In this document: positions 15,420-17,487 of the stretch, piece by piece
How the letters are laid out: each line of letters starts with the position of its first letter
Position numbering within the stretch: the stretch's first letter is position 1
NCBI RefSeq assembly: GCF_026122815.1
Contig: NZ_JAIWQW010000006.1
Span: 1 to 41,793, forward strand
Origin: Buchnera aphidicola (Pemphigus obesinymphae)
GTDB taxonomy: Bacteria > Pseudomonadota > Gammaproteobacteria > Enterobacterales > Enterobacteriaceae
Length of the DNA: 41,793 nt
Direction of reading: 5' to 3'
Translations under genes and position numbers: made by a program
Notes under the pieces: model-generated
The model's database searches: none
What the model was told of the DNA's origin: nothing
Seen by the model: the letters and a program-made list of their open reading frames with translations, nothing else

Positions 15420-16025
15420 TTAAGAACAGTAATTTATATTTTTACTTAGATATTTAGACACTCCAGAAGGAGATGCTTCCATAGCTTCTTTTCCTTTTTC
15501 CCATTGAGCAGGACAAACTGAACCGTTTTTTTCATGAAATTGCATAGCATCTATCATACGTATCATTTCTTTGATATTTCTACCAAAAGGTAAATCATTA
15601 ATTACTTGATGACGAATAATACCGTTTATGTCTATTAAGAAAGATGCTCTTAGTGCTATACCTAAATCAGGATGTTCGATTCCATACATTTGTTGTATAT
15701 TTCTTTTAATGTCTGAAACCATGGTATATTTAATATTTCCGATACCACCTTTATCGATAGGGGTATTACGCCAAGCATTATGGACAAACACTGAATCAAA
15801 TGACACTCCAACAATTTTTACATTGCGATTTTTAAATTCTTGATAAAATTGATTAAATGCTATAATTTCTGAAGGACAAACGAATGTAAAATCCATAGGC
15901 CAGAAAAATAATACAGCAGATGTATTTGAAGTGTATTTTTTAAAATTGAAGTTTTCGATTATTTCACCGTTGTGTAGTATTGCTGGAGCTGTAAAATCTG
16001 GCGCTTTTTGCGTAACTAGAATCAT
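15420..16025 (-). CDS. ahpC: Typical 2-Cys peroxiredoxin (AhpC/TSA family)
   Basis: This thiol peroxidase reduces hydrogen peroxide and organic hydroperoxides. I set the start at 16025: the ATG follows GAGGG at ideal spacing and gives MILVTQKAPDF, whereas the longer frame adds 18 AT-derived residues. The resulting 201-residue protein has the peroxidatic Cys50 in DFTFVCPSE and the resolving Cys171 in GSVCPAQW. It also has a GGIG segment (93-96) and a C-terminal KYLSK helix like those of overoxidation-sensitive peroxiredoxins. It is called tsaA or ahpC in related symbionts. No ahpF reductase gene is in the window, so the electron donor is unknown; thioredoxin is likely. Confidence 0.93.
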   Translation of the reverse strand: MILVTQKAPDFTAPAILHNGEIIENFNFKKYTSNTSAVLFFWPMDFTFVCPSEIIAFNQFYQEFKNRNVKIVGVSFDSVFVHNAWRNTPIDKGGIGNIKYTMVSDIKRNIQQMYGIEHPDLGIALRASFLIDINGIIRHQVINDLPFGRNIKEMIRMIDAMQFHEKNGSVCPAQWEKGKEAMEASPSGVSKYLSKNINYCS

Positions 16026-16196
16026 TTTTCCCTCATTTTTTATTAAATAAATATTTAATATGATATATTTTAAATTCATATTATATCTTGAATATGAGCT
16101 TAATACTGTTATTTATAATAGTTTATTATTTAAATATTTTCATTATATATAATTATATTAATTAATAAAATTATTTTCACTCGTATTGGAGTAATT

Positions 16197-16863
16197 ATGT
16201 CAAATAATAATTTAAATTGGTACGATGTATTAAAAAAAGAAAAAAAAAACTTATTTTTTAGATATAATTCATTTCATATCTAATGAAAGATTAAAAAAAA
16301 TAATTTATCCACCTAATAAAGATATATTCACAGCCTTTCTATTAACTCCATTTACTTCTATTAAAGTAGTTATTTTAGGACAAGATCCATATTATCATTA
16401 TAAACAAGCACATGGTTTGGCTTTTTCTGTTAATTTAGGAGAAATTATTCCACCTTCTTTAAAAAACATATATCAAGAAATATCCGATAATTTTTCATCA
16501 GATTATATCTTTCAGGATGGTTTTTTAAATAATTGGGCAAAACAAGGTGTTTTTTTATTAAATTCTATTTTAACAGTAGAATCCGGAAAACCAGGTTCTC
16601 ATTCCCAGATTGGTTGGCAGTTATTTACAGATAAAGTAATTAAAGTCATAAATGAACATTTAAATGGTGTAGTTTTTTTACTATGGGGTAATAGTGCTAA
16701 AAGTAAAATTAGTATTATTAATAGAAAAAAACATTATATTTTACAGGCGTCGCATCCATCACCTTTATCAGTTTATCGTGGGTTTTTTGGATGCCGCCAT
16801 TTTTTTATTGCTAATCAGATATTAATAAAGCAAGGTAAAACACCTATCAATTGGTTTTGTTAA
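16197..16863 (+). pseudogene. ung: Uracil-DNA glycosylase, frame broken at an A10 tract (possibly rescued by slippage)
   Basis: Ung removes uracil from DNA to start base-excision repair. The ATG at 16197 follows a good GGAG site and gives MSNNNLNWYDVLKKEKK, matching the E. coli start. A run of ten A (16240-16249) then throws the ribosome into a stop at 16281. Downstream, in the other frame, TYFLDIIHF resumes and continues to the TAA at 16861-16863. With nine A (or twelve) the gene would read through as about 221-222 residues (E. coli 229). Catalytic Asp is present in GQDPY. The Asn of LLN and the His of HPSPLS are also kept, but GQDPYHG has become GQDPYYH. Polymerase slippage on the tract could restore some full-length protein; otherwise this is a recent pseudogene. 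Confidence 0.88.
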
Positions 16864-16893
16864 TAGTATACTTTTTTAGCAAGATATTTTTTT

Positions 16894-17487
16894 TTAAAGA
16901 GATATTTCTACTTTAGCTTTTCTTAATACAGTACCATTTAACGTATAACCGTGTTGTATTACAGAAATAATATGATTGGATTGTGTGTTTTTAGATTTTT
17001 TACTTAGTATAGGTTGATGTAAATTTGATTGGAATATTGTATTTTTGTGTCCTTCTCTTTTTATACCGAATTTTGAAATAACATTTAACATAGATTTTAA
17101 AGTTAAACTAATACCTTGTACCATGATTGTTTCTTGATTTTTTTTTTGGTCAGCTATTTTTAATATTTCTTCTAAAGAATCAATAATAGGAAGTATTTTT
17201 TTTGCAAATTTTTCTAATTGAGAATTTTTGATCATTTTTATATTTTGTTCACTTTTTTTTCTTATATTTTCTATTTTTGCTTGTCCTCGTAATTGTATAT
17301 CGGTTATATCATTTTTTACATTTGATATTTTTTTTCTTAAATCTATTATTTGATATTTTTTATTATTTATATCAATTTTATTTTTATCATTTTTTATGTT
17401 TAATTTGTTTTTTTTTTCAGTATTTAATTCTAATTTATCTTCATTGATTTGTTTTTCATTTTTTGATTCTAATTTTTGATTATTCAT
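16894..17487 (-). CDS. grpE: GrpE, nucleotide exchange factor of DnaK
   Basis: GrpE is the homodimeric co-chaperone that releases ADP from DnaK. The 197 residues equal the E. coli length. The N-terminal 50 residues are very rich in Lys, Asn and Glu and poorly conserved. A long coiled-coil helix follows, then the C-terminal beta domain containing HQPILSKKSKN and IISVIQHGYTLNGTVLRKAKVEIS. Two in-frame runs of ten A interrupt the coding strand (17408-17417 and 17138-17147). A strong sigma-32-type promoter lies upstream at 17529-17556, so heat induction is probably kept. It ends 30 bases from the end of ung, convergently. Confidence 0.95.
   Translation of the reverse strand: MNNQKLESKNEKQINEDKLELNTEKKNKLNIKNDKNKIDINNKKYQIIDLRKKISNVKNDITDIQLRGQAKIENIRKKSEQNIKMIKNSQLEKFAKKILPIIDSLEEILKIADQKKNQETIMVQGISLTLKSMLNVISKFGIKREGHKNTIFQSNLHQPILSKKSKNTQSNHIISVIQHGYTLNGTVLRKAKVEISL

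Follow-up and report, generated by a model that had tools for sequence, protein, structure and literature searches.

The uracil-DNA glycosylase gene (ung) of Buchnera aphidicola (Pemphigus obesinymphae) was examined in the first 41,793 nucleotides of contig NZ_JAIWQW010000006.1, a stretch referred to here as the window. It is flanked by a divergently oriented gene that is presumably an ahpC/tsaA-type peroxiredoxin and by a convergent gene presumed to be grpE (Table 1); both were named from their sequences, as were the other genes mentioned below (gyrA, nrdB, aceF, prmC etc.), excepting ung, murF and leuB. The genome is Buchnera-like in its leuB, which reaches at most 75% identity to the leuB of named Buchnera plasmids; such plasmids make up 64 of the 85 matching records. 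Translation from the ATG at 16197 yields MSNNNLNWYDVLKKEKKNLFFRYNSFHI and then a stop at 16281-16283, and a second frame, beginning KKKTYFLDIIHF..., runs without a stop for 207 codons until the TAA at 16861-16863. The earlier note on this DNA had placed an intact N terminus and an intact remainder of Ung in two frames meeting at a run of exactly ten A residues (16240-16249), and direct reading confirmed this arrangement. Five NCBIfam ung models matched the main frame; it scored above the cut-off for four of them, including TIGR00628 (250.6 bits, cut-off 185.75) and NF003589 (294.9, cut-off 223), and fell short only for NF003591 (222.8, cut-off 237). Against 1eui, an Ung of solved structure, it aligned in a single stretch, to residues 14-220. 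It also contains the motifs GQDPYY and HPSPLS, which we take to be the catalytic motif and the second active-site motif of Ung, respectively, and on the strength of the profile scores and these motifs it was assigned to the Ung family. By arithmetic, one base less at the run would give 221 codons from the ATG, and two bases more would give the spacing of enterobacterial Ung (for example, EKQQPYF in genome G060), in agreement with the lengths proposed previously; likewise, no second lesion was found downstream of the run in the window.

Table 1. Features of the ung locus (positions in the window)
Feature	Positions	Strand	Basis and remarks
ahpC/tsaA-type peroxiredoxin (presumed), divergent neighbour of ung	15420..16079	-	Open frame, intact
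GGAG, Shine-Dalgarno-like, 5 nt before the ung ATG	16188..16191	+	Read directly
Start of ung in frame 0 (28 residues followed by TAA)	16197..16283	+	Translation; has the conserved L.W..VL..E start
A10 run, junction of the two ung frames	16240..16249	+	Read directly
Main frame of Ung, shifted +1 from the ATG frame; 207 codons plus TAA	16240..16863	+	Translation, NCBIfam, 1eui alignment
GQDPYY motif of Ung	16378..16395	+	Translation; GQDPY in 112/112 aligned loci
HPSPLS motif of Ung	16753..16770	+	Translation; exact form in 85/112 loci
grpE (presumed), convergent neighbour of ung	16894..17487	-	Open frame, containing two A10 runs

The frame of ung was read in 115 loci; of 381 matching genomes, part contributed (G279 of genus g92, for example, did not). 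Of these loci, 112 were placed by an N-terminal pattern, and the three that missed the pattern (G086, G152 and G177) were read separately as in frame. The Buchnera-like set within this collection comprises 93 genomes with 12 genus codes; six genera were searched whole (g1, 4 genomes; g74, 36; g45, 11; g11, 16; g53, 6; g60, 11; 84 genomes together) and the remaining six were sampled (12 genomes). Genomes were taken as Buchnera-like on their size and, for the 80 with longer loci, also on ahpC, a match to which lies beside ung on the same 3.6-kb locus in all 80. A further scan of genome contigs yielded 57 stretches matching the pattern; two relatives were confirmed, neither carrying the name Buchnera, and they stayed outside the counts. 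In the genera searched whole, three of 84 genomes had no ung match (G435 and G438 of g11, and G187 of g60), and ung thus seems to have been lost, and to be dispensable, in some lineages. As for upstream signals, ATTGGAG precedes ung in the window and in two of the three other genomes of its genus (G002 and G003), the third (G001) having ATTGGAA, and a GGA-type motif is found within 20 nucleotides of the ung start in 37 of the 93 Buchnera-like genomes; a promoter scan of 16050-16950 in the window returned 6 sites, against 8.6 in shuffled sequences.

Among the 93 Buchnera-like genomes, ung is in frame in 44, one base long in 24 and one base short in 25, so that 49 genomes, the window's included, are out of frame at this site. 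Downstream of the run, all 49 copies are free of any second break. In the genus of the window (g1), all four genomes have ung out of frame: G002, which is 94% identical to the window (G000) downstream, has the same A10 run and the same offset, G003 has the same offset at A12, and G001 has the other offset at A13. Because the same break recurs in relatives, the break in the window is more than a chance event. Two further out-of-frame copies were found outside the 12 genera (G018 and G126). In G294 (locus L075), ung is broken at a T10 run a few codons upstream of the usual site, where no A run exceeds 3.

Frame state depends on the length of the run, defined in the 112 placed loci as the longest A or T run between a conserved W and IYPP. 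With runs of 4 to 9, ung is in frame in all 27 loci, and with runs of 10 to 16 it is out of frame in 51 of 85 (Fisher p 3e-9 for length of at most 9 versus at least 10, kinship ignored). The division is the same when only runs at the site itself are counted, 28 of 28 being in frame at lengths up to 9 and 51 of 84 out of frame at 10 or more. In the Buchnera-like genomes with runs of at least ten, ung is in frame in 33 of 82 (32 of 81 by the stricter at-site count); compared with the one third expected if frame were random, 33 of 82 gives a binomial p of 0.20, for lineages that are not independent.

The history of the frame was followed on a rapidly built protein tree with 99 rows, comprising the 93 Buchnera-like genomes and six others; the tree is weakly resolved, 40 of its 96 inner branches being drawn open. 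The three frame states require at least 34 changes by parsimony, with no fewer than nine returns to frame in the histories of minimal length; 40 changes are needed if returns are forbidden. Collapsing the weak branches gave 36 changes with nine returns, or 42 changes with returns forbidden. Frame follows the tree in part, since 34 changes compare with a shuffle mean of 43.1 and none of 500 shuffles was as low; for runs of at least ten only, 32 changes compare with a mean of 39.4, and one of 500 shuffles was as low. Within g74 alone, the 15 changes are close to the shuffle mean of 15.6.

The behaviour of ung was compared with that of its surroundings in 40 kb around the gene in ten relatives and the window, a control of 29 other genes and 278 gene-by-genome cases. 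Nineteen cases were flagged, of which nine were inspected (four frame breaks, one degraded hpt and four others); the other ten (ahpC, secA and aceE) were judged from summary output alone to be differences of start or of stretch end. No frame break was detected at the 532 runs of 8-9 in the control genes, and 47 of their 51 runs of at least ten are in frame. The four broken runs are in prmC (A11) and pth (A10) of G112 (L113-L114), where ung is out of frame too, in ackA (A11) of G260 (L111-L112), and in truA (A11) of G390 (L105-L106), where ung is in frame. In the same genomes ung is out of frame in 10 of 11, versus 4 of 51 for the control runs (Fisher p 1e-7), and the window's four other A10 runs (one in gyrA, two in grpE and one in aceF) are all in frame. 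Proximity to the 5' end was rejected as a sufficient cause, as nrdB has an A12 run approximately 20 nucleotides from its start in G001, G402 and G112 and yet is in frame. In G260, hpt is reduced to a short weak match.

These counts bear on two explanations that place the variation in the DNA data or in the DNA itself. Homopolymer error in assemblies has some grounds, in that sequencing through long stretches of A is difficult, coverage of poly-A regions was low in a Buchnera project described in PMC3890641, and the assembly of the window (GCF_026122815.1; 680,759 bases, 99.78% complete, 8.55% contamination) is in 146 contigs. Such error would, however, strike all genes alike, which is at odds with the contrast between 4 of 51 comparable runs and 10 of 11 ung copies in the same genomes, and the separate genomes G000 and G002 both have A10; it is considered very unlikely. 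Symbiont cells carry many chromosome copies, and replication slippage could keep several run lengths within each cell or population, in which case in-frame copies would supply Ung and the assemblies would show the commonest length. Such a mixture would agree with a phase that drifts freely and with a threshold in length, as long runs also mutate fastest in DNA, and single-base indel polymorphisms have been described from deep sequencing of Buchnera in PMC3164680. The runs of at least ten in other genes share the same mutability, yet 47 of 51 are in frame, which counts against mutation alone and not against mixtures tolerated at ung; on the whole, a DNA mixture is regarded as unlikely.

Purifying selection was evident on the part of ung downstream of the run. 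Between the window and G002, both out of frame, dN/dS of this part is 0.136 at dS 0.23, a mid-range value, 11th lowest among 26 genes of the neighbourhood compared between these two genomes, and the 40 differences include no stop, where neutral simulation at the same dS gave a mean of 7.4 stops and zero stops in 0.015% of runs. The downstream part gave dN/dS of 0.14-0.42 (median 0.24) in ten out-of-frame pairs, and ung gave 0.09-0.57 (median 0.17) in six in-frame pairs; the pairs were chosen manually on the tree, G390 occurs in two of the in-frame pairs, and the members of one out-of-frame pair (G419 and G402) have different phases. The medians suggest a possible mild relaxation of selection when ung is out of frame. 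The signal from the short N terminus is weaker: the window and G002 differ there by 2 non-synonymous and 0 synonymous changes, dN/dS pooled over the ten out-of-frame pairs is 0.32 (Fisher p 0.005), and the in-frame pairs, with very few changes, give a pooled value of 0.64.

Decay of ung as a pseudogene would be consistent with the three genomes that have no ung match and with the somewhat higher dN/dS of the out-of-frame pairs. Against it stand 49 out-of-frame copies free of downstream lesions, the range of dN/dS in the ten out-of-frame pairs, and 40 differences without a stop where neutrality predicts about 7, and it is accordingly thought highly improbable. The earlier note had offered either a slippage-rescued gene or a very young pseudogene. 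The second alternative is disfavoured: a recent pseudogene should have a break restricted to one lineage and relaxed selection, whereas the A10 break is shared unchanged with G002 at dS 0.23, its offset recurs with A12 in G003, dN/dS is low and no stops have accumulated. Rescue by a presumed slippage is the better supported alternative.

The explanation favoured here, with a probability of roughly two in three, is that ung of the window is a functional gene of low demand that is out of frame in the DNA and is read through slippage at the run, likeliest by RNA polymerase. RNA polymerase, whose RNA:DNA hybrid spans 9 bp, would lose its register at A runs of about this length and above (ten or more), and those transcripts with a usable A-run length would be the fraction that yields full-length Ung. 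The enzyme would be required in small amounts only, and its N-terminal Lys stretch would tolerate one residue more or less, so that the exact length and phase of the run would be unseen by selection and the run could drift through all three phases while ung stayed conserved. The occurrence of both wrong phases, the floor of ten and the conserved downstream part fit slippage that gives a spread of lengths. In the account of Buchnera transcription errors in PMC5574713, 151 of 157 insertions were in homopolymer runs and their rate grew exponentially with run length; the same account reports no frame-restoring transcription error, and among published results this one weighs most against the reading of ung given here. 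More tentatively, and with the odds perhaps slightly against it, selection may effectively not act on the frame at this site throughout the Buchnera-like radiation: any run of at least ten A would work, a usable frame would be regenerated stochastically at each transcription, and the floor at ten would be set by the RNA polymerase hybrid.

Two routes to Ung at the level of translation were also considered. Poly(A) codons are slippery, and the change of frame at the poly(A) run, or at the poly-lysine codons within it, might be made by ribosomes rather than by RNA polymerase; a one-directional mechanism of this kind would also give the pattern of murF, in which 23 of 24 broken copies have one offset. 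The offsets of ung are about equal (24 and 25 of 49), and the window would need the +1 direction of ribosomal shifting. Polymerase slippage fits better than one-directional ribosomal frameshifting because both wrong phases occur, and the ribosomal route is judged improbable. Programmed ribosomal frameshifting of the dnaX type, which has a fixed direction, was rejected on the same two offsets. Alternatively, initiation at an internal or alternative start in the Ung frame might produce a slightly shorter enzyme for which the broken N terminus would be irrelevant. In 12 of the 49 out-of-frame genomes an Ung-frame ATG lies over 15 codons ahead of IYPP, approximately level with the run or upstream of it, and in 29 an ATG, GTG or TTG is so placed. 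Such starts cannot serve in the window, however, because none of these three codons occurs in its Ung frame ahead of GQDPYY; eight of the 49 genomes (the window and 7 of the 48 others) lack all three there and 24 have no ATG. The frame-0 N terminus, moreover, is open from the start codon in 112 of 115 loci by pattern and in the other three by separate reading, and internal initiation appears, if anything, a shade less probable than ribosomal shifting.

Rescue of frameshifts at poly(A) tracts by slippage in Buchnera and Blochmannia, to which the earlier note had appealed, has indeed been published (Tamas et al. 2008, as told in PMC5009743, PMC3164680 and PMC3017870; see also PMC3890641), with 12-50% of transcripts corrected in the cases so described. 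Like those cases, ung belongs to a reduced, AT-rich symbiont and has a single break at a long A or T run in a gene that is otherwise intact, and the break is common to diverged lineages (the offset is shared by G000, G002 and G003, and 49 of 93 genomes are out of frame). The cases named in these sources are cell-wall genes and a histidine gene, whereas ung is a repair gene whose break lies close to the 5' end and recurs, in either wrong phase, across dozens of lineages. The title of Wernegreen et al. 2010, by which alone that paper is compared here, refers to selection that maintains homopolymer frameshifts, as at ung; the frame state of ung, by contrast, itself turns over. In the Buchnera of Myzus persicae, genes annotated across two frames at poly-A, with sequence conserved on either side as in ung, are deemed functional by the authors of PMC3890641.

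Repeated homopolymer frameshifts in Buchnera murF are described in PMC3164680. In the 30 murF loci read from the 36 genomes of g74 (L143-L172; G076 has no murF match and five other loci were left out), the gene is broken at a run of A10-A14 in 24, of which 23 have one offset, and in g45 the search rows alone give full-length matches in 5 of 11 genomes and split matches in 6 of 11. Thus murF resembles ung in its repeated homopolymer frameshifts and differs in the use of a single offset, both being used by ung.

A literature search found no published account of an ung frameshift in Buchnera, although supplementary tables, which lay outside the search, may list ung; in the portion of PMC1440324 that was retrieved, the gene is merely listed on an array. 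Slippage rescue itself is already published, and what looks new here is a single site whose frame is, in effect, unconstrained throughout a radiation of symbionts. The 81 genomes with runs of at least ten at one codon position form a natural series in which symbiont tolerance of frame errors through slippage can be tested with RNA reads. The findings also set apart genes whose frame seems protected when runs are equally long (nrdB and gyrA in the sampled genomes) from those whose frame is not (ung and, in part, murF). The gene for Ung, which is central to countering C-to-T damage, could be recorded as absent, or as a pseudogene, in genomes where the enzyme is probably still produced.

The 3.6-kb loci were also examined for the consequence for mutation pressure that the earlier note had suggested, and a crude comparison of GC content showed no lowering with out-of-frame ung in three genera: in g74 the values were 0.243 for in-frame (n=11) and 0.249 for out-of-frame loci (n=19; p 0.12), and no such difference was seen in g45 (n=3 and 8; p 0.78) or g11 (n=7 and 5; p 0.43). 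On the same loci, ahpC has no break in 80 genomes, with just four runs of at least ten, and nadK is split at A11 in 2 of 56 genomes, G180 (L017) and G424 (L061), its first 33 residues being in another frame. Length differences of grpE were flagged in 26 of 72 genomes without a second-frame match. In 12 of the 16 genomes of g53 and g60, the grpE frame is 47-73 residues short at its end, with no match in another frame, and the grpE frames over all genera contain runs up to A24.
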